Shown here one piece after another: positions 18,857 to 54,955 of a DNA stretch of 64,000 bases. The notes under the pieces were generated by a model. That model was not told the DNA's origin, did no database searches, and was given only the letters and a program-made list of their open reading frames with translations. How positions within the stretch are numbered: position 1 is the first letter of the stretch; the number at the start of each line of letters is the position of its first letter. The stretch is from Kiritimatiellia bacterium (GTDB taxonomy: Bacteria; Verrucomicrobiota; Kiritimatiellia; JAAZAB01): assembly GCA_028718125.1 (NCBI GenBank), contig JAQUMN010000009.1, forward strand, positions 51,554-115,553, in the 5' to 3' direction. Both the position numbers and the translations under genes were made by a program.

Positions 18857-18986
18857 GCAATTCCCCCGGCGTAATGATTTTTCATGTTGACTTTTGACGG
18901 AGCGCATATTAGCTTGGGCTAAATTCAGGAATTATGCATCCTGCACGGATATCACGGGTTATTTCGCCGGCGCGGGGTTCAGTTTC

Positions 18987-21900
18987 ATGACCAAAAAAAA
19001 TAAACTCTGCGCACACGTTAAAAGTCTCGCCAACACTCGCTTCAAGTTTCAACAACGCCGGCGTTATCATCACAGGATAATCTGGTCCTCCCTTTTGTGT
19101 GCCGTCTGCGTTACGGCGCAGGCGGCAACCGCCAAGGTGCGCCTGCAGCTCAAGTGGCATCACCAGTTCCAGTTCGCCGGGTATTACGCGGCCCAGGCGC
19201 AGGGTCATTACCAGGCAGCCGGATTGGAGGTGGAGATTATTCCCTGCCAGCCCGGGGAAGACGCAGTGCAGCAGGTTTTGCAGGGCAAGGCGGAGTTCGG
19301 GGTCGGCGCCACCGACCTGCTTCCGTTGCGGGAGCAGGGTGCGCCGGTGGTAGCCTTGGCGGTGATCTTCCAGCACTCCCCTCTGGCGCTCATGACCCTG
19401 ACACAAGGCGGACTGCAATGCATCCATGACTTGTCCGGCCGCAGAATCATGATCGAGAGCGGTTCATCCGAACTGTATGCCTACTTGAACAAAGAAGGGG
19501 TTCCCTTCAACAAGTTCATTGTACTTCCCCATGCTTTCCAGACAACAGAACTGCTTGCCGGGAATGTGGATGCCATGTCAGCCTATGTCACCGATGAACC
19601 ATATGAAGTCAGCAAGGCCGGGAAGGAGTATTTGCTCTATTCGCCCCGCTCGGTGGGCATTGATTTTTACGGCGACAATCTTTTTACCACCGAGCGCCAG
19701 ATCAAGCTCAGGCCGGCAATGGTAAAGGCGTTTCGGGACGCGAGCCTTAAAGGTTGGGAATACGCCATGCAGCATCCGGAAGAACTGGTGCAGCTGATTT
19801 ATTCCCGGTATAGCCAGCGGCACAGCATAGAACACCTGCGTTTCGAAGCCCGCCAGATGGTGCCGCTGATGCAAACGGCGCTGATAGAGATCGGGCACAT
19901 GAATCCGGATCGCTGGCGGCACATTGCCGAAACCTATGCCGAACTCGGCATGATGAAGCCGGATTTCAATCTGGAAGGCTTTCTCTATGATCCCAATCCG
20001 CCGCCGCCGGATATGAACTGGCTGTATATATACACGGGCGCGGCAACCCTGCTGATCGCCGTTTTTCTGGTCTTGGCCGCTTACATATACCGCATCAACG
20101 TCCGGATGCGCCAGCGTGCCGCTGACCGCAGGCGGGCGGAGGAGGCCCTGCGGGAGAGCGAAGAACGGTTCCGTTCTTTCGTGGAAAATGCGAATGATAT
20201 TATCTATACGCTGGATCAAAACGGCATTCTCACATATGTCTCCCCGAACTGGAAAGATATACTCGGACATGACGCCCGTGAAGTCATCGGCCAACCATTT
20301 GTGCGTTATGTGCATCCGGATGACGTTCCGGCATGTAATGCTTATCTGGAGCGGGTCATTACGACGGGCAAACGAATAAGCGGGGTCGAATATCGAGTCC
20401 AACACCATGACGGCACCTGGCGGTGGCATTCTACGAACGGTTCGCTGATGCGCGATGCCGCCGGTAAAATGATCGGCGCTGTAGGGATCGGCAGAGACAT
20501 CACCGGGAGCAAGAAGGCGGCGAAGGAACTGTTTCAGGCCAAATCAGATCTTGAAAAAGCGTACAAGCAATTACGGTCCGAGTTTGAAGTGGAAAGCAAG
20601 CTCGCGATCCAGGCCCAGGCCGCCAACACCGCCAAGAGCCAGTTCCTGGCCAACATGAGCCACGAAATCCGAACGCCAATGAACGGTATTGTCGGTATCT
20701 GCGAGCTTTTGCTTGAAACCAAATTGACCAACGAACAGCTGGAATATGCGCAAGCCATTAACTCCAGCGCACAAGCGCTTCTTAATATCATCAGTGCCAC
20801 GCTTGATTTTTCAAAAATCGAGGCCGGCAAAATTAATTTGGAACAGATTGATTTCAATCTCAGGACCGTCATGGAGGATGTAATCAGAATACTAGGGATT
20901 AACGCCGCCATGAAGAACCTGGAATTTATTTATACCATCGATCCGGATGTGCCCCTCGACCTGAATGGCGATGACGGACGTTTGCAGCAGATTCTTTTCA
21001 ATCTCATCGGCAATGCCATTAAATTCACGCCGAAGGGTAAAATCACCGTCAGCGTGGCATTGGTTGAGAAAAACGAGGGCAAGGCCATTTTGCGTTTTTC
21101 CGTCCGCGATACCGGCATCGGCATTCCGGCCGATAAAACCAGCCTGCTGTTCAATGCTTTTACCCAGGTGGACTCGTCCACGGCGCGCAAATTCGGCGGA
21201 ACAGGACTGGGACTGTCAATATCCAAAGGATTGGTGGAACAAATGGGCGGATCAATCGGTTTTGAAAGTGTCGAGCACAAAGGCTCAACATTCTGGTTCA
21301 TTATTCCATTCTTAAAACAGCCAGCCAACGCCCGGCCCGCCAAACCCGCCGAACCCGCGGCCGTTGCCGAGGAAGCAGAGAATGTAAAGCCTTTGCGCAT
21401 TCTTGTAGCTGAGGACAATATGGCCAACCAAATGGTCGTTTTGGGCATCCTCAACAAAATGGGGCATATTACTCATGCCGTTGCCGATGGCAAAGCCGCG
21501 GTTAAAGCGCTGGAAACGCTTCCCTACGACCTTGTACTGATGGATATTCAAATGCCCGAGATGGATGGTTTTGAAGCCACCGCCATAATCCGCGATCCCA
21601 AATCGCGGGTGCGCAACCATGCGGTTCCAATCCTGGCGCTCACGGCACATACCATGCCGGAGCACAGGGAAGCATGCATATCCGCCGGTATGAACGGCTA
21701 TATTGCCAAGCCGGTCAACAAAAAACTGGTTGCCGATGCCATTGCCAACCTGGCTTCTCCAGATAAGGCCGCCGCACCCGGGAACGACGGCATGCCGACC
21801 CCGGCCGATGGTCCAGCCGCCGTGTTTAATTCCAAGGCTTTCTCCGACCTGCTTTCCGGCGACAACGCGTTGATTCGCAAGGTTATAAATATTTATCTTC

Positions 21901-22160
21901 AGGAAACACCGGCAAAGATGCGCGAGCTTGAACAAGCCGTAAAAAATCAACAGGGGCATGCTGCCGCGCAGTTGGCCCATAACATCAAGGGCAGTGCGGC
22001 CAATGTCGGCGCCAATCAATTTCGCGCCATTGTGGTCAAGGTTGAAGCCGCCTGCAAAGCGGAGAATTGGCCCGAGGCGGAAACGCTTGTTTTGCGACTA
22101 AACAGGCAGTTTGCAATACTGGAACGGGCCTTGCGGGAGTATTTACAAACCGTCGTGTAA
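18987..22160 (+). CDS. Hybrid sensor histidine kinase with THI5/NMT1-like periplasmic sensor
   Basis: From the ATG at 18987 the protein has 1057 residues; the ORF-track start at 18894 is a TTG and less likely. Order: an N-terminal export helix; a substrate-binding-protein-like THI5/NMT1 domain ('LKWHHQFQFAGYYAAQAQGH', about 50-280); one membrane helix (WLYIYTGAATLLIAVFLVLAAY); a PAS domain; a coiled coil; HisKA with 'SHEIRTPMNG' (His 559); HATPase_c with 'DTGIGIP' and 'GGTGLGLSI'; a receiver with 'LVLMDIQMPEMDG' (Asp 853); and an HPt domain with 'LAHNIKGSAANVG' (His 998). It is a full internal phosphorelay. The ligand is unknown, though THI5-like folds often bind pyrimidines or similar small molecules. 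A second hybrid kinase follows. Confidence 0.93.
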   Translation: MTKKNKLCAHVKSLANTRFKFQQRRRYHHRIIWSSLLCAVCVTAQAATAKVRLQLKWHHQFQFAGYYAAQAQGHYQAAGLEVEIIPCQPGEDAVQQVLQGKAEFGVGATDLLPLREQGAPVVALAVIFQHSPLALMTLTQGGLQCIHDLSGRRIMIESGSSELYAYLNKEGVPFNKFIVLPHAFQTTELLAGNVDAMSAYVTDEPYEVSKAGKEYLLYSPRSVGIDFYGDNLFTTERQIKLRPAMVKAFRDASLKGWEYAMQHPEELVQLIYSRYSQRHSIEHLRFEARQMVPLMQTALIEIGHMNPDRWRHIAETYAELGMMKPDFNLEGFLYDPNPPPPDMNWLYIYTGAATLLIAVFLVLAAYIYRINVRMRQRAADRRRAEEALRESEERFRSFVENANDIIYTLDQNGILTYVSPNWKDILGHDAREVIGQPFVRYVHPDDVPACNAYLERVITTGKRISGVEYRVQHHDGTWRWHSTNGSLMRDAAGKMIGAVGIGRDITGSKKAAKELFQAKSDLEKAYKQLRSEFEVESKLAIQAQAANTAKSQFLANMSHEIRTPMNGIVGICELLLETKLTNEQLEYAQAINSSAQALLNIISATLDFSKIEAGKINLEQIDFNLRTVMEDVIRILGINAAMKNLEFIYTIDPDVPLDLNGDDGRLQQILFNLIGNAIKFTPKGKITVSVALVEKNEGKAILRFSVRDTGIGIPADKTSLLFNAFTQVDSSTARKFGGTGLGLSISKGLVEQMGGSIGFESVEHKGSTFWFIIPFLKQPANARPAKPAEPAAVAEEAENVKPLRILVAEDNMANQMVVLGILNKMGHITHAVADGKAAVKALETLPYDLVLMDIQMPEMDGFEATAIIRDPKSRVRNHAVPILALTAHTMPEHREACISAGMNGYIAKPVNKKLVADAIANLASPDKAAAPGNDGMPTPADGPAAVFNSKAFSDLLSGDNALIRKVINIYLQETPAKMRELEQAVKNQQGHAAAQLAHNIKGSAANVGANQFRAIVVKVEAACKAENWPEAETLVLRLNRQFAILERALREYLQTVV

Positions 22161-38551: not shown

Positions 38552-38648
38552 GGGAGTGAATGGTGCCTGGTGGTGCCTCTGGTCTTCAAAACCAGTGTGG
38601 GGCTGTAAAAGGTCCCGGGTCGGGTTCGATTCCCACTCGCTCCCGCCA
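38552..38648 (+). tRNA. selC: tRNA-Sec (anticodon TCA)
   Basis: A 97-nt tRNA with an 8-bp acceptor stem (GGGAGTGA/TCGCTCCC), an anticodon arm CTGGTCTTCAAAACCAG (TCA), a long variable arm, a T-arm with GGGTTCGATTCCC, discriminator G and encoded CCA. These match bacterial tRNA-Sec. It is divergent from selA. Confidence 0.96.
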
Positions 38649-45785: not shown

Positions 45786-45825
45786 GTGAGCCATACGGAC
45801 ATTGAAGGGTCGGAGGTGGAATGGA

Positions 45826-47148
45826 ATGAGCGAACAAAGCAAGAAGAAGTCTGTCCACAAGCAGGCCCGTGGTCCCTGCCGGCCTTCCACGTCTCCCGGA
45901 AAGGGGAAAGGCCGGCCGGCGCCCGGCGCGGCTGACGGCCCCTTGGCATGGTTCGACGACATGGTGACTCATTGCCTTGGCTATGCCGAGGCCCGGATGA
46001 AACAAGGGGGGCACATTGTCGGTATTACGTGCGAATATACGCCGCGCGAGCTCATCATGGCGGCCGGGGGAATCCCGGTCTGCCTGTGCGGGGGCAATGA
46101 GGACACGATCACGGCAGCTGAGGAATTCCTTCCCTCCAACCTATGTCCGCTGATCAAGTCCACTTTTGGCTACAGCGTCCTGAAAGAGAATCCGTTCCTC
46201 GAGATGGCGGATATCGTCATCGCGGAGACAACCTGTGACGGCAAAAAGAAAATGTATGAACTGCTGGCCGAGAGCCGGTCAATGCACGTGCTGGAACTCA
46301 CCCAGAAACCGGCTGACCCCCATGCCTTGGAACACTGGGTGCTTGAATTGAGGGAACTGAAGCGCGTGCTGGAGAAACGGTTCCAGACCTCGATCACCCG
46401 CGACAAGCTGAAGGGCGCCATCGCGCTCATGAATCGCGAGCGACAATTGCGCCGCAAGCTGGCCGGGCTCATGAAATCAGATATGCCCCCGCTTACCGGT
46501 CGCGAGCTGCTCAATATGAAAAGCATCATTGCCTGCATGCCCGCTGACTTGGAGCAATATGAAAAAGCGCTGCAAGTCCTGCCGGGCCGGAAGCTGGATC
46601 CGCCGGCGTCAGAACGGATCAGAGTCCTGCTCACGGGCGTACCGATGCCACACGGGGCCGAGCGTGTCGTCGACCTCATTGAGGAAAACGGAGGATTGGT
46701 GGTTTGCCAGGAGAACTGCACAGGACTCAAGCCCATTATGGATGATGTGGATGCCGGAGCCGAGGATCTCATGTGTGCCCTGGCGGAGAAATATTTCCAT
46801 CTACCGTGTTCTGTCATGACCCCGAATGTCAGACGGTTCGACTTGCTTCGGAGACTGGCTGCCGAGTATCGGCCCGAATGCATCGTAGAAGTGATCTGGC
46901 AGGCCTGTCTGACCTACGATGTCGAATCGTTCTCCGTGAAAAGACTGGCCGAAAAAGAGCTCGATCTTCCCTATTTACGGATCGATACCGATTATTCCCC
47001 GTCCGATTCCGCGCGGATCAGCATGCGCACCCAAGCGCTGTTCGAGACTATTCGGGCACGGATCGAGACCCGGAAGCGAGGCGTCCCGCCAGGCGAGCCG
47101 CAAGGCCTTGAAAGGAGCACAGGACAAAATGATCTATGCCGGGATTGA
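45826..47148 (+). CDS. HgdB/BcrC-type (double-cubane-like) reductase component
   Basis: 440 residues from the ATG at 45826, which has GGAGGTGGA upstream; the track start at 45802 is a TTG inside that site. It belongs to the 2-hydroxyacyl-CoA dehydratase D-component family (HgdB/BcrC/BadD, COG1775), which includes the double-cubane cluster proteins. Conserved cysteines are visible in 'GITCEYTPRELIMAAGGIPV', 'PSNLCPLIKSTFGY', 'IAETTCDGKKKMYELL', 'CQENCTGLKP' and 'VIWQACLTYDVESFSV'. These proteins receive electrons at very low potential from an ATPase activator, encoded next with a 20-bp overlap. As no partner alpha subunit is present, a stand-alone reductase of the DCCP type is more likely than a true dehydratase. 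Substrate unknown. Confidence 0.88.
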   Translation: MSEQSKKKSVHKQARGPCRPSTSPGKGKGRPAPGAADGPLAWFDDMVTHCLGYAEARMKQGGHIVGITCEYTPRELIMAAGGIPVCLCGGNEDTITAAEEFLPSNLCPLIKSTFGYSVLKENPFLEMADIVIAETTCDGKKKMYELLAESRSMHVLELTQKPADPHALEHWVLELRELKRVLEKRFQTSITRDKLKGAIALMNRERQLRRKLAGLMKSDMPPLTGRELLNMKSIIACMPADLEQYEKALQVLPGRKLDPPASERIRVLLTGVPMPHGAERVVDLIEENGGLVVCQENCTGLKPIMDDVDAGAEDLMCALAEKYFHLPCSVMTPNVRRFDLLRRLAAEYRPECIVEVIWQACLTYDVESFSVKRLAEKELDLPYLRIDTDYSPSDSARISMRTQALFETIRARIETRKRGVPPGEPQGLERSTGQNDLCRD

Positions 47149-47896
47149 CGCAGGATCGAGGACGATCAAGGTGGTACTCGTTAACGGCAACGACCTAAGC
47201 GTGATGGCTTCAGGCGTTGCCGATCAGGGACTCACACAAACGGCCCTGGCTTCAAAACTCTTTGACCGGGTCCTAAAGAAGGTCGGGGTCAATCGACGCA
47301 GAGTCAGAAAGGTTCTGGCCACCGGCTGGGGACGCGACACCGTTGCATTTGCCGACACAACCATTACGGAGATTACCTGCCAAGCTTGCGGGGTCTATCA
47401 CGAGAGAGGCGATGCCAAAACCGTCATTGATATCGGCGGACAGGACAGCAAACTGCTTAGATTGGATACCGACGGTAAAGTGCGCGACTTCGTGATGAGC
47501 GACCGATGCGCCGCCGGAACCGGCCGTTTTCTCGAGGTAGTCGCCGCAAGGCTCAATGTAAAACTTGCCGATCTCGGCAGACTGGCGGGCAGGGCTGGAA
47601 AGCCATCCGCCATTAGCAGCATGTGCGTCGTATTCGCCGAGACGGAAATCATTGGCCTGTTGGCGTCCAACGAGAAAGCCGAAAATATTGTCGCCGGAAT
47701 CCAGAAATCAATTGCATCGCGGATTGCCTCCATGGCCGGTCGTACCATCGCCGAACCGGTCGTTTTTACCGGCGGCGTAGCCCTGGTTCCTGGAATGGCC
47801 AAAGCCCTCGAAGCCGCGTTGGGGCATCCGGTGCATGTGGCCCGCCATGCGCAACTGACCGGCGCCCTCGGGGCAGCGATCCTATCCTCCCGGTAG
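47129..47896 (+). CDS. Acyl-CoA dehydratase activase (BadF/HgdC-type ATPase)
   Basis: 255 residues from the ATG at 47129 (AAAGGAG upstream). It is an ASKHA-fold ATPase that carries a [4Fe-4S] cluster between two subunits and drives electrons into the HgdB-type partner. Visible: phosphate-1 loop 'IDAGSRTIKVVLVN', 'VIDIGGQDSKLLRL' and the cluster cysteines in 'VMSDRCAAGTGRFLEVVA' and 'ISSMCVVFAETEI', with 'VFTGGVALVPGM' as adenosine motif. Length fits the family (about 250-260). It overlaps the upstream gene by 20 bp, so the two are coupled. Confidence 0.92.
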   Translation: MIYAGIDAGSRTIKVVLVNGNDLSVMASGVADQGLTQTALASKLFDRVLKKVGVNRRRVRKVLATGWGRDTVAFADTTITEITCQACGVYHERGDAKTVIDIGGQDSKLLRLDTDGKVRDFVMSDRCAAGTGRFLEVVAARLNVKLADLGRLAGRAGKPSAISSMCVVFAETEIIGLLASNEKAENIVAGIQKSIASRIASMAGRTIAEPVVFTGGVALVPGMAKALEAALGHPVHVARHAQLTGALGAAILSSR

Positions 47897-47936: not shown

Positions 47937-49901
47937 TCATCGATCCGACGAAGATTCTCCATGGTAGTGCAGGGCCAGGACGGTGATGTCGTCGGACTGC
48001 GGGGCGCCGGCGGCATAGGCATTGACGGATTGGAAGATGGCGTCCACGACGGTTTTTGGTTCCTGATCGCTGACCCCAGCCGCCGTTTCCCGCAGGCGTT
48101 CCATGGAATACAAGTCCTGGCTCGGATTGCAGGCCTCGGTGACGCCGTCGGTATAGAGCACCAGCGTGTCGCCGGCGTGCAGGATCAGCGAAGCGGTCGA
48201 ATATCGAACTGCTTCAATCGTGCCCAGGACAATGCCCTTGGGCACGGGTAATTCCTCCGGCTGGCTGCCGGCACGCCGGATCAGCGGAGGATTATGTCCG
48301 GCATTGGAATATACCAGCTTGCCCGTGCAAAAATTGAGCACGCCGCAAAAGACGGTCACAAACATATTCGTATCGTTTTCTTTGCATAATTCCTGGTTAA
48401 CGTGTTCCATTATGCCGGCCGGATCAAGTCCGCCTTGCAAGGCAATCCCTTTCATCAGCGTTTTAGTCACGGCCATGAAAAGCGCTGCCGGCACGCCCTT
48501 GTCGGCAACATCACCGATGCTGAAGAACAGATGCTGGTCGTCGAGCAGGAAAAAGTCATAGAGATCGCCGCCGACTTGCTTGGCTGGTTCCAGTCGGGCA
48601 TAGAGATCGAATTCGGCCTGTTCGGGGAAAGGCGGGAAATGCTTCGGCAGAAAACTCATCTGAATTGTCCGCGCAATCTTGAGTTCGCTTTCCAGGCGCT
48701 CCCGCGCGACGGTGGCTTCCGTAAGGCCGGCAATATACTCCTTGAGGGCCACGCGCATATTGTCGAAAGCATACGAGAGTTCGCCCACTTCGTCGCGGCT
48801 TTTTACCAGCGGCAATTTGATATCCAGATTGCCGAGCGCAATTTCCGCCGTGGTCCGGGCCAGGGCCCGGATTGGCCGGGTCACGGCGGCCGAAATCAGA
48901 ACGATGATCAGGAAGAGGATGACAAAGCCCACCAGACCGATCAGCAGAATGTTGCGCCCCATGCGCTGGGCATCGGCAAACAGTTCGTCCTCCGGGAAGA
49001 GCACGCCCAACGACCAGCCCGGCGATTTCAACGGCGCGTAATACAACCATGAAGGCTTGCCCAGTGTCGGGCTTTGCAGCCGTACAAAGCCCGTATCGCC
49101 GCGAACCATCGCCTGACCGACCTGCCGCAAATGCGCGTCGGCAGCGCCCTCGGCCAGATCGAATATGCTTTGACGCATGATTAAGCGCTTATCGGGATGC
49201 GTAACGAACATACCGTTCTGCGAAATCAGGCAGGCATAACCGGTTTTCAAAAACGATACCGCGGAAACTATCTTGACCAGCCAGTCCAGAGCGATATCGG
49301 CCGTAACGATTCCCTGGAATTGCCGCCGTCCATTTACCATACGGTAAAAAGGCACAGAATACGTGGTCATGATAACCTTGCCCCCGCCCTCATCGAAATA
49401 GGGTTCGCTCCACATGGGACGATTGAGTTCTTTGGGAAGGATATACCAGTCCAAATTAAAATACTGGTACTGGTCGCTACCCAGCCAGGTCTGCCGGATA
49501 TCCGCGCCCTGGCGACAGCAGTAAGGCGCAAAATACAGGGATTGGGGATTGAAGGCGTACGGTTCAAACGCCACGGCCGATCCGAAAATATCCGGATCGG
49601 CCACTAACGCATTACGAATGAAGGCAATCAGGTCCGCGCGCTCCCAGTCGCGCTGTTCCAGGCAAAGCGCCATGTAGCAGGGGATATTTTCAACGCCGTT
49701 CAATACGGCCTCAATCCGGCTGACCGTGGCGCCGGCCAGATGGCGGGCATTCGTTTCCGCATTGCTTAGAATGCTGCGGCGCGAAAGGGCATGATTGTAA
49801 AGAAAGGCGGCGGCAAATACAACCGAAGTGCCTGCCAGGACCATTAAGCCGAGTTTAACGGCCAGGCTGGTTCGTCGGAATTGAGATGGCGCAGTTTTCA
49901 T
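47937..49901 (-). CDS. Membrane SpoIIE/RsbU-type PP2C phosphatase with periplasmic sensor
   Basis: A 654-residue protein. One N-terminal helix (LAVKLGLMVLAGTSVVFAAAF), a dCache-like extracellular sensor (about 45-300, 'GYACLISQNGMFVTHPDKRL'), a second helix (NILLIGLVGFVILFLIIVLI), a HAMP domain ('TRPIRALARTTAEIALGNLD'), a linker helix, and a SpoIIE-type PP2C domain ('KQVGGDLYDFFLLDDQHLFF', 'IGDVADKGVPAALFMAVTKT', 'LVLYTDGVTEA', 'QSDDITVLALHYHG') carrying the metal-binding Asp residues. It should dephosphorylate the STAS antagonists encoded upstream. It overlaps the end of the THI5-like gene by 47 bp. Confidence 0.92.
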   Translation of the reverse strand: MKTAPSQFRRTSLAVKLGLMVLAGTSVVFAAAFLYNHALSRRSILSNAETNARHLAGATVSRIEAVLNGVENIPCYMALCLEQRDWERADLIAFIRNALVADPDIFGSAVAFEPYAFNPQSLYFAPYCCRQGADIRQTWLGSDQYQYFNLDWYILPKELNRPMWSEPYFDEGGGKVIMTTYSVPFYRMVNGRRQFQGIVTADIALDWLVKIVSAVSFLKTGYACLISQNGMFVTHPDKRLIMRQSIFDLAEGAADAHLRQVGQAMVRGDTGFVRLQSPTLGKPSWLYYAPLKSPGWSLGVLFPEDELFADAQRMGRNILLIGLVGFVILFLIIVLISAAVTRPIRALARTTAEIALGNLDIKLPLVKSRDEVGELSYAFDNMRVALKEYIAGLTEATVARERLESELKIARTIQMSFLPKHFPPFPEQAEFDLYARLEPAKQVGGDLYDFFLLDDQHLFFSIGDVADKGVPAALFMAVTKTLMKGIALQGGLDPAGIMEHVNQELCKENDTNMFVTVFCGVLNFCTGKLVYSNAGHNPPLIRRAGSQPEELPVPKGIVLGTIEAVRYSTASLILHAGDTLVLYTDGVTEACNPSQDLYSMERLRETAAGVSDQEPKTVVDAIFQSVNAYAAGAPQSDDITVLALHYHGESSSDR

Positions 49902-50871
49902 AAAAATCGTTCCAGGCCGGTATGGCGTTGATTTGGCCGGCGTCTTTCAATTCCTGGGCCACGCGCGAGTAATCGGATTCCGCAAGCGTGCCGAACGCCG
50001 GGGCGCCGGGCGGTTGCATGATGTCTTTCATGCGGCTCAGCATCCAGCGCTGGTGAACTCGATTGGTCGGACGATTGGCCGCCGTTACCTGCCGCATGAC
50101 AATATCCAGCGCTTCCTCAGGATGCTGAAACGCGTATTGCCAGCCGGCAATCGAGGCCTGCACAAAGCGGCGGCAACGGTCCGGATTCTGTTTCAGCGTC
50201 GGCGCCAGGCAATAGATGCCGTCTTCCGGAAAATTAAGGCCGAACTGATCGTAAAAGAAAAAAGTCAGGTCCTGCGCTTCAAGGCCGCCGTTGATCAGCA
50301 TGTGATATTCATTATACCACATGCCGGAAGCGGCATCCACCGCCCCGCGCAAAAAAAGATTGATCGTTGCGCCCTGGGTCAGCACTCGCGGTTCCACGCC
50401 GAATTTGCGGAACAGGGCCTTGGGCTGAACCGCAAAATCAGGCCAGAGGCTGACCGTTTTGCCCTGTAAATCGGCGGGCGAATGGATGCCGGACGATTTG
50501 CGGGCCACAAGCAGGAGGGAGGAGCGTTGCACCATTTGCGCGATATTGACGAGCGGCAACCCGTCGCGGGAGCGCTTTTCCAGTGCGGAGGCCAGGAACG
50601 TCGTGGCAAAGTCCGCCTGGCCTTCCTGAAGCAGTCGGCCAACCGGCTGGTTCGGGCCGCCGCGAAGTATGGTGACGGTCAAGCCGGAGCGGGTATAAAA
50701 GCCTTTTTCGACAGCGACATAATACCCGGCAAATTGGGCCTGCGGTTCCCATTGCGGTACGAAGACGATTGGTTGGGTATCAGCCGGCGCGGCCTTCAAA
50801 GCAAGTGTGCCGGACAATAGAAGCAAGCCGACCAACGGCAGCAGCCGGCGGGCATAAGGTACCTGCTTCAT
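49855..50871 (-). CDS. THI5/NMT1-like periplasmic substrate-binding protein
   Basis: 338 residues from the ATG at 50871, whose ATGA overlaps the stop of the upstream STAS gene; the track start at 51045 lies inside that gene. Signal peptide ARRLLPLVGLLLLSGTLALKAA. The THI5/NMT1 fold is clear: 'WEPQAQFAGYYVAVEKGFYT', 'ILRGGPNQPVGRLLQEGQAD', 'LQGKTVSLWPDF'. Related proteins bind thiamine precursors, pyrimidines, sulfonates or nitrate. No ABC permease or ATPase lies nearby; instead it sits in a partner-switching operon, so it probably presents a ligand to the PP2C phosphatase. The fold is shared with the sensor of the kinase at 19 kb. Confidence 0.88.
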   Translation of the reverse strand: MKQVPYARRLLPLVGLLLLSGTLALKAAPADTQPIVFVPQWEPQAQFAGYYVAVEKGFYTRSGLTVTILRGGPNQPVGRLLQEGQADFATTFLASALEKRSRDGLPLVNIAQMVQRSSLLLVARKSSGIHSPADLQGKTVSLWPDFAVQPKALFRKFGVEPRVLTQGATINLFLRGAVDAASGMWYNEYHMLINGGLEAQDLTFFFYDQFGLNFPEDGIYCLAPTLKQNPDRCRRFVQASIAGWQYAFQHPEEALDIVMRQVTAANRPTNRVHQRWMLSRMKDIMQPPGAPAFGTLAESDYSRVAQELKDAGQINAIPAWNDFYENCAISIPTNQPGR

Positions 50872-51218
50872 GGCAGACAAACCGCATCTAACTGCTTGAG
50901 CGCCGCCGCCTCCGTGGGGCAAATTGAAAACAAGGCGGCAAACCCGGATATCTCGAACACTTTTTGCGCTTCGCCCTGCAGGGCGCAAATCACAATGCTC
51001 CCGTCCCGCTCGCTGATTTTTTTGGCAGAGGCAAGGATACTGCACAGGCCCGCACTGCTGATGAAGGTCAGATCGGCCATGTTCAGGATGAAGTGACGAC
51101 CGCCGGCATCCAGGCGCTGGTTTAAAATCCGCTCAAATTCCGGGGTGGCGGCGGCATTAAAGTGCCCATGGATGCTCAGGACAACGGCGCCAGATTTATT
51201 TTCAATGATAATTTGCAT
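50868..51218 (-). CDS. STAS-domain anti-sigma factor antagonist (2)
   Basis: 116 residues from the ATG at 51218 (4 bp after the previous stop). STAS domain with the phosphorylatable serine in 'ADLTFISSAGLCSILASAKK'. In such systems the unphosphorylated form binds the RsbW-type kinase and frees its partner sigma factor or target. It overlaps the THI5-like gene by 4 bp. The track ORF start (51317) is inside the neighbouring STAS gene and is rejected. Confidence 0.88.
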   Translation of the reverse strand: MQIIIENKSGAVVLSIHGHFNAAATPEFERILNQRLDAGGRHFILNMADLTFISSAGLCSILASAKKISERDGSIVICALQGEAQKVFEISGFAALFSICPTEAAALKQLDAVCLP

Positions 51219-51222
51219 AGGT

Positions 51223-51552
51223 TTAACTTGGCAAAGCGTCTTTAACCGACTTAAAGATCGGCAGGATGGTATCGAAACCGGACATGGCAAAGACTTCCTT
51301 GACGACGCCTTTGACATTACAGAAGTTCACCATGCCCTTGGATTCCTTGACTTTTTTGGCAGTGGTCAACAGGCTGCGCAAACCCGCGCTGCTGACATAA
51401 TCCAAGGCGTTAAGGTCCACGACAAACTTCAGGTCGCCGCGCTGGAGACACGCCATAATCGCTTTTTCATACTCCATGGCGGCAATGACATCCATGCGGC
51501 CGGCAAGCTCCATGACGACCGCCTGATCAATTTTACTGGTCGAGATGTTCAT
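51223..51552 (-). CDS. STAS-domain anti-sigma factor antagonist (1)
   Basis: 109 residues from the ATG at 51552, which has an excellent AAGGAG 8 bp upstream; the track start at 51588 is 12 residues longer and lacks a site. STAS fold with 'ALDYVSSAGLRSLLTTAKKV' holding the regulatory serine. First gene of the STAS-STAS-THI5-PP2C operon, divergent from the permease gene. A TTGATT-17-TAATAA promoter-like pair lies upstream. Confidence 0.9.
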   Translation of the reverse strand: MNISTSKIDQAVVMELAGRMDVIAAMEYEKAIMACLQRGDLKFVVDLNALDYVSSAGLRSLLTTAKKVKESKGMVNFCNVKGVVKEVFAMSGFDTILPIFKSVKDALPS

Positions 51553-51712
51553 ATCGTCTGCTCCTTCCATGCAGCGTTGATTCGGCAAACGGGCGTTGTG
51601 TGATCTAACATGTCTTTATTATCATCCCTCCCGATCAAAATCAATGTATTCCGTCATTTTTTTTATTGACGCATCGAGGGACGTTTCAGTACACACTACG
51701 CAAGGGATAATT

Positions 51713-53128
51713 ATGATGGCGACCTTAGACCGGCTGTTTCATTTGACCGCAAACGGGACCACTGTGCAGACCGAAATGCTTGCCGGCCTGACAACGTTTT
51801 TAACCATGGCCTATATCATTTTTGTCCAGCCGGCAATTTTATCCGGGACATTATTCGGCATACAAACCGGCATGGATTTCGGCGCAGTAATGACGGCCAC
51901 CTGTGTGTCGGCCGCGATCGCAACGGTGATCATGGCGCTCTATGCCCGTTATCCGATCGCGCAGGCGCCCGGGATGGGGGAAAATTTTTTCTTTGTTTTT
52001 TCCGTTCTGCCGGCCGCCGCGGCAGCCGGTTTTGCCCAGCCCTGGAGAGTGGGTCTTGGCGTGGTACTGGTGGCGGGGCTGTTGTTCATGTTGATTTCGG
52101 TTGTCGGCATACGCGAGATGATCATTGACGCCGTCAGCCCCAGCCTGAAAAACGGGATTGCCGTGGGCATCGGTTTCTTCATCGCGTTTATCGGGTTTCA
52201 GAATTCCCGCCTGATCCTGCCCAGCGCCGGCACCTGCGTACGCCTGAACCCTCAATTTGCCTCGCCGGATATGGTCGTTTTTTTCTTCGGGCTGATCCTG
52301 ACGGCAGCCCTGCATGTGCGCCGCGTGCGCGGATCCATCCTGTGGGGCATCCTGGCATCCTGCCTGCTGGCCATCCTGCTCAAACTGACGATTCCCCATC
52401 TGCCGCCGGCCATTACGGAAACCAGGCTCGTAAGCGAATCCATGCTCATGACCCGGTTTCAGATCGCCAAGCACCTGACAGCGCTGCCGCCGTCCATGGC
52501 CGGCACGTTCCTGCAGATTGACCTTGCTCAAGCGTGTTCGCTGACTATGTTGCCGTTCATCGTCATTTTCCTGTTCATGGATGTATTCGACACCATGGGC
52601 ACGTTGATCGGGGTGGGGGAACAGGGCGGCTTTATTGTGAACAACAAGCTGCCGCGCGCCCGGCAGGCCTTGCTGTCGGACGCGACCGGGACGGTGATCG
52701 GCGCCTGTTGTGGAACCAGCACGGTGACCAGTTTCATTGAAAGCGCCGCAGGCGTGGAGCATGGCGGGCGAACGGGACTGGTGGGGCTGGTCGTGGCCGC
52801 ATTTTTTTTACTTGCGCTCTTCTTCAGTCCCATCGTGGCGATGATCGGCAGTTACGCGCCCATTACCGCGCCGGCCCTTGTAGTCGTGGGATTCATGATG
52901 ATGCAAAACCTGCGTAAAATCGATTGGGACGACTACAGCGAAGCCGTCCCCGCGTTTCTGATTGCGCTGGGTATTCCGCTGGCCTATTCGATTGCCGACG
53001 GACTCGCCTTCGGGTTCATCACGTATCCGGTAATCAAGGTGCTGAGCGGACGGACGCGCGACATTCGCTGGCCGATGACCATGGCATGTATCATCCTGCT
53101 GATGTATTTTGTGTTGATCCGGAGTTAA
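51713..53128 (+). CDS. AzgA-type NCS2 purine (hypoxanthine/guanine/adenine) permease
   Basis: About 471 residues from the ATG at 51713 (or 51716); AAGGGATAA lies just upstream. The track start at 51596 runs into the neighbouring gene's leader. Some 12-13 membrane helices are visible. Family motifs: 'TMAYIIFVQPAILS' near the N-terminus, 'APGMGENFFFVF' (AzgA has PGMGxNA), 'FMDVFDTMGTLIGVGEQGG' and 'GTSTVTSFIESAAGVEHGGR'. It imports purine bases with protons. It stands on the opposite strand in the middle of the partner-switch genes. A link between purine supply and the THI5-like sensor is possible but unproven. Confidence 0.9.
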   Translation: MMATLDRLFHLTANGTTVQTEMLAGLTTFLTMAYIIFVQPAILSGTLFGIQTGMDFGAVMTATCVSAAIATVIMALYARYPIAQAPGMGENFFFVFSVLPAAAAAGFAQPWRVGLGVVLVAGLLFMLISVVGIREMIIDAVSPSLKNGIAVGIGFFIAFIGFQNSRLILPSAGTCVRLNPQFASPDMVVFFFGLILTAALHVRRVRGSILWGILASCLLAILLKLTIPHLPPAITETRLVSESMLMTRFQIAKHLTALPPSMAGTFLQIDLAQACSLTMLPFIVIFLFMDVFDTMGTLIGVGEQGGFIVNNKLPRARQALLSDATGTVIGACCGTSTVTSFIESAAGVEHGGRTGLVGLVVAAFFLLALFFSPIVAMIGSYAPITAPALVVVGFMMMQNLRKIDWDDYSEAVPAFLIALGIPLAYSIADGLAFGFITYPVIKVLSGRTRDIRWPMTMACIILLMYFVLIRS

Positions 53129-53156
53129 TGCCACGTATAAGAATTTCAAGGTTCAT

Positions 53157-53266
53157 TCCCTCTCCCTTGAGAGAGGGTGGGGTGAGGGACATTTTCCAAG
53201 TTACAGGCCCCTCACCCGATCCCGATGCGCTTCACGATCAGGATCGACCTCTCCCTAAGGAAAGGT
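53157..53266. repeat. CCCTCTCCC/GGTGAGGG palindromic repeat
   Basis: A 110-bp element: ccctctcccttgagagaggg hairpin, then gtggggtgaggg pairing with the later cccctcaccc, and a degenerate ctctccctaaggaaagg at the other end. This style of nested palindrome is a common dispersed repeat in bacterial genomes. Located after the permease stop. Confidence 0.65.
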
Positions 53267-53300
53267 GAAACAGCTGACGCCTTCGGCGTCTAACTCCGCT
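53266..53300. repeat. Short hairpin repeat, second copy at 28067-28100
   Basis: gaaacagctgacgccttcgg... matches gaaacagttgccgcctttgg... at 28067 with compensating changes in the hairpin arms (gacgcc/ggcgtc versus gccgcc/ggcggc), followed by taaytc in both. Confidence 0.5.
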
Positions 53301-53717
53301 TCACTTCCGCGCGATATTTATCTCAAGAATGTTCGCGTCGTTTTCCCGCCGATAGACGATGCGGTCGACTATTTCGCGCACAAGATGCAAGCCCAGGCCA
53401 CCCACTTTGCGCTGGTCCAGCGGAACATAGATGTCCGGTTCGGGCGTATGCAACGGATTGAAGGGATGCCCGTCATCTTTCAAACGCAAGCGAATAGTGT
53501 CCGGGAACAGATCAAGCGCAACCGTAATCGCGTGAGGGGCCGTATCGTCGTAGCCGTATTTGATGATGTTGGTGACAATTTCTTCTATGGCCAGGTTGAC
53601 CCGGAAGATCGCCTCGTGCGACAGGGCGTGCTGTTCCATGAAACGGTTGACCTCGGTCGTCAGCGGCGACAGGGATTCCAGCGTATTCCCGATGGTTTGA
53701 CTGAGAGAGTCGCTCAT
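53301..53717 (-). CDS. RsbW-type anti-sigma factor serine kinase (HATPase_c)
   Basis: A 138-residue GHKL-fold protein. N-box 'LAIEEIVTNIIKYGY', G1 region 'LRLKDDGHPFNPLH', G2 region 'VGGLGLHLVREIVDR'. Small stand-alone HATPase proteins of this type phosphorylate STAS antagonists and bind a sigma factor or other partner. It is the third gene of a run STAS(3)-GPP34-RsbW. No sigma factor gene is in the window, so its final target is unknown. Confidence 0.9.
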   Translation of the reverse strand: MSDSLSQTIGNTLESLSPLTTEVNRFMEQHALSHEAIFRVNLAIEEIVTNIIKYGYDDTAPHAITVALDLFPDTIRLRLKDDGHPFNPLHTPEPDIYVPLDQRKVGGLGLHLVREIVDRIVYRRENDANILEINIARK

Positions 53718-53901
53718 GGCGCAACACTATCATACTTCGGGATGAAATTTCCGCGTTATCCGCTGTTCAGAAAACATAAAACGGCGATCCCGGAATCTGT
53801 CGCACACAAAGCCTCGAAAGAAATCGCGCCGGTCGGGAATTAACCCTGTGACCTTTGTGGCTCCGTGTGAGAATGTTACGGGAAAAATCACCCCGCCCCG
53901 T

Positions 53902-54558
53902 TCAGGCCATCATTGTCATGGACATGGCAATGGCCATCGTGCGTTCGATTTCGCGGATCGATTTGGCCATTTCCTGGCCAATCAGGTCCAGGCGGGCAAG
54001 CGCGACAATCCGCGCACGCACCTTCTCGTACTCCGCCGGCGTAAACAAGTCGTCCAACAACCGGCAGGCATTGCCCAGATTGATCAGTACGACCTCGCGC
54101 GAATCGGGAATATCGTCGCTGAGAATCAACTCCCGCAGGCGGGTTTTGACTTCCTTAACCTCATGGTTATCCATGACCGGATACCGGCGCACTTCAAAGA
54201 CCCACAAAATCCGCCGGTTTTCCTGCTTGAGAATACCTTTTTGAATCAGCCGCGCAAGGACCCGTTCCTGAATGCGCTTGGACTGGTCCGCAAAGTGTTT
54301 CAGCCAAAAGCTGGTCGGCTGGGGCACGGGGTTCTGCTGGAGGTCGCGCAACACATCGTCCAGGATCGGATCGCCGGTTGGCTTGGTGTCAGTGACGCTC
54401 AAGCTGGTCAAATCCGTATCAATCCGGTCCTGAAGCGCCAGGTCCATGAGCATCGCGCCGGCCAGGGCGTAATCCAGCGCCGAGACGGGCAATGGCTTGA
54501 TAACGCCCTGCTTGTCGTCGAGGGCTAGCAGAAAAATTTCTTCAGCAAAGCTGAGCAT
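53902..54558 (-). CDS. GPP34 (GOLPH3/Vps74-like) family protein
   Basis: 218 residues from the ATG at 54558, which has a perfect AGGAGG 6 bp upstream; the track start at 54609 is rejected. The N-terminus 'MLSFAEEIFLLALDDKQGV' and 'LPVSALDYALAGAMLMDLAL' are the signature of the GPP34/GOLPH3 fold. Eukaryotic members bind phosphatidylinositol-4-phosphate; bacterial members are mostly uncharacterised, and are best known from actinobacteria. Here it sits between a STAS gene (58 bp upstream) and the RsbW-type kinase gene. A role in tying the partner switch to the membrane is possible but inferred. Confidence 0.85.
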   Translation of the reverse strand: MLSFAEEIFLLALDDKQGVIKPLPVSALDYALAGAMLMDLALQDRIDTDLTSLSVTDTKPTGDPILDDVLRDLQQNPVPQPTSFWLKHFADQSKRIQERVLARLIQKGILKQENRRILWVFEVRRYPVMDNHEVKEVKTRLRELILSDDIPDSREVVLINLGNACRLLDDLFTPAEYEKVRARIVALARLDLIGQEMAKSIREIERTMAIAMSMTMMA

Positions 54559-54616
54559 ACCTGGTCCTCCTATATAGCAATCAACTATGGCGCGGACGAA
54601 TCCAACCATCCTGGAA

Positions 54617-54955
54617 TTACATCGCGCAGGCGCCGACGGCTTCGTTTAAAGTTTTATAAATCGGCATTATACTGGCAAAGCCCGCAATATCAAAAATCTG
54701 CTGGACCTGAGCTGACGGGCTGGCCAGCGCCAGTTTGCCCTGCGCCTGCTTTAAATGCTTGGCCGCGGAAAGAAATACCCGCAGACCGGCGCTGCTGACG
54801 TATTCCAGGCCATCGAGGTTAACCACAACCTGCCTGGCCCCGCTCCCGACCAGGCCGGTCAGACGCTTGTCCAGCTCTGGTGAACTTGCCGAGTCCAGTT
54901 TGCCTTGGACCTGCAGTATGGTGACGTTGCCCTGTTTCGATTCGCTGGTATTCAT
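54617..54955 (-). CDS. STAS-domain anti-sigma factor antagonist (3)
   Basis: A 112-residue STAS protein: 'VTILQVQGKLDSASSPELDK' and the regulatory serine in 'GLEYVSSAGLRVFLSAAKHL'. The ATG at 54955 has AGGGAG 6 bp upstream. First gene of the STAS-GPP34-RsbW run. Together with the two STAS genes at 51 kb this gives three antagonists and one kinase in 7 kb. Confidence 0.9.
   Translation of the reverse strand: MNTSESKQGNVTILQVQGKLDSASSPELDKRLTGLVGSGARQVVVNLDGLEYVSSAGLRVFLSAAKHLKQAQGKLALASPSAQVQQIFDIAGFASIMPIYKTLNEAVGACAM

Follow-up and report, generated by a model that had tools for sequence, protein, structure and literature searches.

Gene content of the locus

We analyzed a 64,000-nucleotide stretch of a Kiritimatiellia bacterium genome (contig JAQUMN010000009.1, positions 51,554 to 115,553; hereafter the window), which carries between positions 47937 and 54955 an operon that pairs an NMT1/THI5-like binding protein (hereafter NMT1) with a membrane-bound PP2C phosphatase. 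An earlier sequence-only reading had named eight genes here, and all eight are present, each above its Pfam cut-off. Transcription on the minus strand runs from STAS protein a (51223..51552; RsbV-like, 109 aa; PF01740 64 bits) through STAS protein b (50868..51218; RsbV-like, 116 aa; PF01740 60 bits) and NMT1 (49855..50871; 338 aa; PF09084 147 bits) to the phosphatase (47937..49901; 654 aa). The four genes had been described as overlapping; the order stands, as do the overlaps at two junctions—the STAS b stop and the NMT1 ATG share 4 nt (ATGA), and the phosphatase start lies inside the NMT1 gene with a 47-nt overlap—whereas STAS a and STAS b are separated by a 4-nt gap.

About 2 kb from the operon, beyond a divergent NCS2 xanthine/uracil-family permease (51596..53128, plus strand; PF00860, Xan_ur_permease, 139.5 bits; its true start is probably downstream of the TTG), lies a second minus-strand set (54955-53301) whose gene assignments Pfam confirmed. 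It consists of STAS protein c (54617..54955; RsbV-like, 112 aa; PF01740 86 bits), a GPP34 (GOLPH3-like) protein (53902..54609; PF05719 161 bits; start more likely at 54558) and an RsbW-like serine kinase (53301..53717; 138 aa; HATPase_c_2 86.6 bits), a candidate kinase for the STAS proteins. The SSAGL phospho-site motif is found in all three STAS proteins, and the N-box of the kinase reads EEIVTN.

The phosphatase had been read as a membrane PP2C with a sensor of its own, and both Pfam (SpoIIE 177.7 bits, MCP-like_PDC_1 99, dCache_1 63, HAMP 44) and an AlphaFold2 (AF2) model give it the architecture transmembrane segment (TM) - dCache - TM - HAMP - SpoIIE, directly after NMT1. In the model, the periplasmic dCache sensor (about aa 36-305; 48987..49796, minus strand), which we propose as the docking partner of NMT1, matches the fold of mmHK1S-Z3, and the catalytic domain matches SiaA-PP2C, RssB and Rv1364c. 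Across 58 phosphatases, the catalytic metal-binding residues D446, D464 and D585 are invariant, with D637/D638 at 90% or above. Adjoining the phosphatase gene, at 45802-47896 on the plus strand, is a two-gene operon of a double-cubane-cluster anaerobic reductase and a BadF/HgdC-type activase.

NMT1 itself has an N-terminal signal peptide, with no lipobox seen in its sequence, and its AF2 model (mean pLDDT 92.8) has as its nearest solved folds 4nmy, a thiamin-bound substrate-binding protein (SBP), and 3ix1, the pyrimidine binder ThiY.

NMT1 and dCache form a conserved pair with exchangeable outputs

We next compared this arrangement across 388 genomes of the phylum, and across 80 matched loci in a named genome collection. 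All strong free-standing NMT1 homologues in the phylum sample (28/28) precede a dCache transducer, and the loci of the collection divide into 59 that are dCache-linked, 12 that are ABC-linked and 9 others. The dCache-linked records carry names from about 14 phyla, including Thermodesulfobacteriota, Myxococcota, Planctomycetota, Verrucomicrobiota, Lentisphaerota, Omnitrophota, Elusimicrobiota, Nitrospirota, Acidobacteriota, Chlorobiota, Bacteroidota and Pseudomonadota, although many are metagenome-assembled genomes whose single phylum assignments may be wrong. Conservation of gene order had been put forward as a check, and the succession of NMT1 and dCache-HAMP-PP2C recurs at this breadth. Overlap is the rule at these junctions, seen in 79 of 88 NMT1-dCache gene pairs, 21 of them by exactly 4 nt. 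Within the same class as the window's bacterium, the gene after NMT1 encodes PP2C in genomes G003 and G004 (and, behind a truncated NMT1, in G007), a PP2C-RsbW fusion in G101, G010 and G137, and in G025 a dCache-MCP protein, with CheW and CheR coming next.

A single branch (support 95) sets the 89 dCache-linked rows apart from all others in a tree of 114 NMT1 proteins, and the ABC-linked rows fall into a separate, fully supported clade. Linkage to dCache requires 1 change on this tree, compared with a shuffled mean of 22.9 and no value as low in 500 shuffles; the tree comes from a quick search and contains a few long branches. These sequence comparisons indicate that the NMT1-dCache link had one origin.

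We also calculated distance correlations over 67 pairs, which were highest for NMT1-dCache (r = 0.80), followed by NMT1-PP2C (0.47) and dCache-PP2C (0.36), with common descent adding to all three. Given split-half values of 0.82 for NMT1 and 0.79 for dCache, the tracking between these two is at the ceiling of the data. The split-half value for PP2C is only 0.45, and after Spearman-Brown correction the correlations become about 0.90, 0.63 and 0.49, respectively, so that the contrast with PP2C is real yet smaller than the raw values suggest. This noise in the PP2C distances weakens a stronger claim, namely that the divergence of dCache follows that of NMT1 and not that of the PP2C domain in the same protein.

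The output joined to the pair, by comparison, is exchanged. Among 89 NMT1-dCache pairs it is PP2C in 73, PP2C-RsbW in 7 and MCP in 3 (L039, with CheW and CheR, L167 and L168), with the rest joined to others, such as a histidine kinase (L083) and a guanylate cyclase (L106). The most similar NMT1 proteins outside the genus (60%) are the MCP-linked ones of L167 and L168. That the output domain is swapped while the pair stays is as expected of a separable sensor unit. No single open reading frame joining NMT1 to dCache was seen; elsewhere in the window, 28 kb from the operon, an NMT1 domain is fused to a PAS-histidine kinase-REC-HPT protein of 1088 aa (18894-22160, plus strand), a covalent version of an NMT1 sensor in the same 64-kb stretch.

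Partner-switch genes and a GPP34 protein accompany the pair

Recurrent neighbor families in 74 loci were led by STAS (25, assigned with window STAS b and c as the reference) and RsbW (21), then by ABC ATPases (8) and by a 340-aa protein of unknown family (7). The RsbW domain that relatives carry fused to PP2C reaches 44% identity with the window RsbW (in G101), a match that ties the kinase 2 kb away to the phosphatase of the operon. Taken together, the STAS/RsbW neighbors and the fusion of RsbW to PP2C lend comparative support to the earlier proposal that the phosphatase would reset STAS phosphorylation. No sigma factor was seen beside the module. As the whole genome contains 3 SpoIIE, 2 strong RsbW-like and 11 STAS matches, cross-talk is possible.

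The STAS-GPP34-RsbW set is a recurrent association of its own. It is found again in G003 and G004, on other contigs; in G030 and G132, GPP34 is accompanied by RsbW and several STAS genes. STAS-GPP34 fusions occur in L188, L236, L237 and L239, and a further one in L170 (G313) lies ~3 kb upstream of an NMT1-PP2C-RsbW module. Both GPP34 and the NMT1 module are present in 13 genomes against ~2.5 expected (Fisher p = 4e-8, without correction for phylogeny). From its place between STAS and RsbW, GPP34 is a candidate client of the switch. We found no paper on GPP34 with STAS in the open-access literature searched. In the same-genus genome G004 neither this set nor the permease adjoins the operon, which makes both of them looser associates of it.

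Downstream of the module, five loci (L062, L068, L103, L104 and L170) encode a membrane-anchored protein that carries between one and four PF04392 domains, mostly followed by a STAS protein with a C-terminal part of ~300 aa belonging to no known family, and in L068 and L170 a BPD_transp_2 permease comes after these genes. In some loci the PF04392 and STAS genes share an operon with NMT1-PP2C-RsbW. The corresponding genes are also present at C1 in the window's genome (G000), with the tandem PF04392 binding protein and its STAS partner at C1:66195-70426. These gene orders suggest that, in some species, PF04392/BPD_transp_2 genes tie the switch to uptake.

A proposed co-receptor role for the binding protein

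Collectively, these comparisons suggest that NMT1-dCache-PP2C is probably a two-gene sensor for a partner-switching circuit, with the SBP serving as co-receptor. NMT1, exported as its signal peptide predicts, would bind a small periplasmic ligand—judging from its fold, at best guess a nucleobase or related N-heterocycle—and would dock on the dCache domain of the phosphatase, as gene order, co-divergence and output swapping suggest. Docking would be passed via the second TM and HAMP to the PP2C domain, which, as in the RsbU/RsbV family, would dephosphorylate the STAS proteins at the Ser of SSAGL. The RsbW-like kinase (53301-53717) would rephosphorylate them and, when free, would bind a client. 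The sequence-only reading had the THI5-like protein delivering a ligand signal to the phosphatase, an idea that gains support at the level of comparative genomics.

Several observations weigh against this interpretation. The dCache family often occurs without an NMT1 neighbor (the 11 such loci that we checked are scattered in the dCache tree), and dCache can therefore work without it. About half of the full-flank loci (n = 46) have no STAS/RsbW nearby, with STAS or RsbW present in 24/46 and both in 22/46. In G007 (L051, L052), two divergent NMT1 copies retain only the signal peptide and the C-terminal third, and they continue to overlap the PP2C gene; the surviving part suggests that the C-terminal helices of NMT1 may be what touches dCache. 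Hints as to the ligand are also few, and the Mo-hydroxylases that contribute to them score below the equivalog cut-offs for xanthine dehydrogenase.

The first of these points underlies the strongest alternative, namely that dCache binds a small molecule of its own and drives PP2C alone, with NMT1 merely co-transcribed, whether to buffer the ligand or to serve some other purpose. Domains of the dCache type usually bind ligands directly, and the same family is found here without NMT1. However, the NMT1 clade nearly always adjoins dCache with overlapping genes, its divergence tracks dCache as well as the halves of dCache track each other, and the pair moves jointly onto MCP and other outputs, so we regard this alternative as unlikely. 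The occurrence of dCache without NMT1 did lead us to reject mutual dependence of the two, and the pattern of linkage suggests instead that NMT1 of the dCache-linked clade depends on dCache and not vice versa.

A second possibility is that NMT1 works as a conventional transport SBP with an ABC permease whose gene lies elsewhere, the phosphatase neighborhood then reflecting co-regulated uptake. The sister clade of NMT1 is indeed ABC-linked, and the five relatives with PF04392—a different SBP—downstream, two of them with BPD_transp_2, point the same way, as do the corresponding genes on C1 in this genome. That transporter brings its own SBP, however, and is no evidence for a permease serving NMT1. 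We found no cognate ABC permease or ATPase in the operon, and none of the seven BPD_transp_1 permease domains of the genome is near it. On C24 the domain sits with its own NMT1_2 SBP, on C1 the domains adjoin a PBP_like_2 SBP, that on C46 is of the peptide type and that on C62 lies beside a TOBE_2 ABC ATPase; as every one of those examined either has a partner already or belongs to a different type, no TauC/SsuC-type permease is left free for NMT1. The NMT1 domains of the genome number four, namely the operon's own, the kinase-fused one, that on C24 with its own ABC permease, and one weak match. The earlier description of a binding protein lacking an ABC transporter thus holds genome-wide, and the permease partner elsewhere that had been named as a potential refuter of the signal-delivery idea was not found in the genome, leaving ordinary transport very improbable.

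Finally, that NMT1 is a THI5-type enzyme making the thiamin pyrimidine is hardly credible: THI5/THI13 structures are its relatives in fold and sequence, but it is predicted to be exported, its sequence lacks the CCCFC motif of cytosolic THI5 hydroxymethylpyrimidine phosphate (HMP-P) synthase enzymes, it is closer to proteins that bind thiamin and formylaminopyrimidine (FAMP), and its neighborhood showed no thiamin gene.

Relation to known signaling systems

The proposed co-receptor has a precedent in LuxP-LuxQ, the autoinducer-2 receptor of Vibrio, in which the SBP carries the ligand and its gene lies next to that of a membrane receptor whose periplasmic domain has two modules of the PDC/dCache type. 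Here, too, an exported SBP is encoded beside a receptor with a dCache-type periplasmic domain, but the SBP comes from the NMT1/THI5 family, and a Ser/Thr phosphatase of a partner switch is the usual output. In the scheme proposed here, the operon would work like LuxP-LuxQ joined to an RsbU-type phosphatase. With ThiY and other pyrimidine/thiamin ABC binding proteins NMT1 shares fold and family (3ix1, 4nmy), differing in having no transporter and a dCache transducer as its partner.

On the output side, the locus has in common with RsbU-RsbV-RsbW a PP2C phosphatase, a STAS antagonist and a HATPase_c_2 kinase, and the PP2C-RsbW fusions of relatives resemble Rv1364c (3ke6). It departs from that system in its external binding-protein input, in the lack of a sigma factor beside it and in having GPP34 in the client's place. 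SiaABCD of Pseudomonas aeruginosa likewise combines a HAMP-SpoIIE/PP2C membrane phosphatase with a STAS-like switch protein, its client being the diguanylate cyclase SiaD (PMC7647112). SiaA-PP2C (6k4e) is a fold match to our phosphatase, but SiaABCD has no SBP and a different kinase and client, and only the C-terminal half of the phosphatase resembles SiaA (75 bits vs. a cut-off of 700).

A 2022 survey of SBP-activated receptors covers chemoreceptors, sensor kinases, c-di-GMP enzymes and Ser/Thr kinases, with no phosphatases (PMC9602780). We found no paper on an SBP-PP2C pair in the open-access literature searched, and the combination of a partner-switching module with an SBP co-receptor was not found there either. 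Many bacterial switch circuits are entered through RsbU-type phosphatases, yet what most of the membrane-bound members respond to is unknown. Were the signal delivered by a binding protein, a screen with a single small soluble protein could identify the ligand. In the public annotation that we met, such proteins are labeled 'ABC transporter substrate-binding protein', so that, if our interpretation is true, a widespread sensor class is hidden among supposed transporters. More tentatively, NMT1-dCache could be a portable nucleobase-type receptor used in many phyla with several outputs, chiefly the first SBP-gated Ser/Thr phosphatases, with the switch in this lineage also controlling GPP34, a membrane-associated protein, instead of a sigma factor.

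Clues to the ligand

A nucleobase is our best guess for the NMT1 ligand, held at somewhat less than even confidence. The NCS2 permease in the window is the only PF00860 match in the genome; in L076 an NCS2 permease lies divergently beside the NMT1-dCache pair, and in L261, on a Thiodictyon plasmid, two are found near STAS-NMT1-PP2C-RsbW together with xanthine-dehydrogenase-family genes. Genes of that family also flank the module in L065, L071, L079 and L080. As read from sequence, the operons of two ABC-linked cousins include a dihydropyrimidinase-like gene (L122) and amidohydrolase and deaminase-like genes (L116).

The permease had been noted as lying in the middle of the locus, and it does stand between the two gene sets, but this position is not conserved beside the operon in the genus. 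The permease does not adjoin the operon in G004 (L038), and the 74 loci showed no recurrence of it when the window permease was used as query; it was rejected as a core part of the module.

In the dCache_1PU family of purine sensors, the motif Y-R-W-F-D/N corresponds to Y121, R129, W140, F167 and D169 of McpH (PMC11245519). By eye, the dCache domain of our phosphatase has W152-Y153, with no clear F-x-D/N at matching spacing.

A conserved protein of ~340 aa, which has no Pfam match, recurs near the module and often lies beside xanthine-dehydrogenase-family genes; it occurs in L065 (4128-5144), L071 (4077-5111), L079 (9598-10659), L080 (2838-3956), L094 (857-1906) and L261 (9437-10480). Rfam provided no riboswitch as a clue to the ligand, returning only tRNAs in the window. 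A selenocysteine tRNA (RF01852, 70.8 bits) lies at 38552-38644 on the plus strand.

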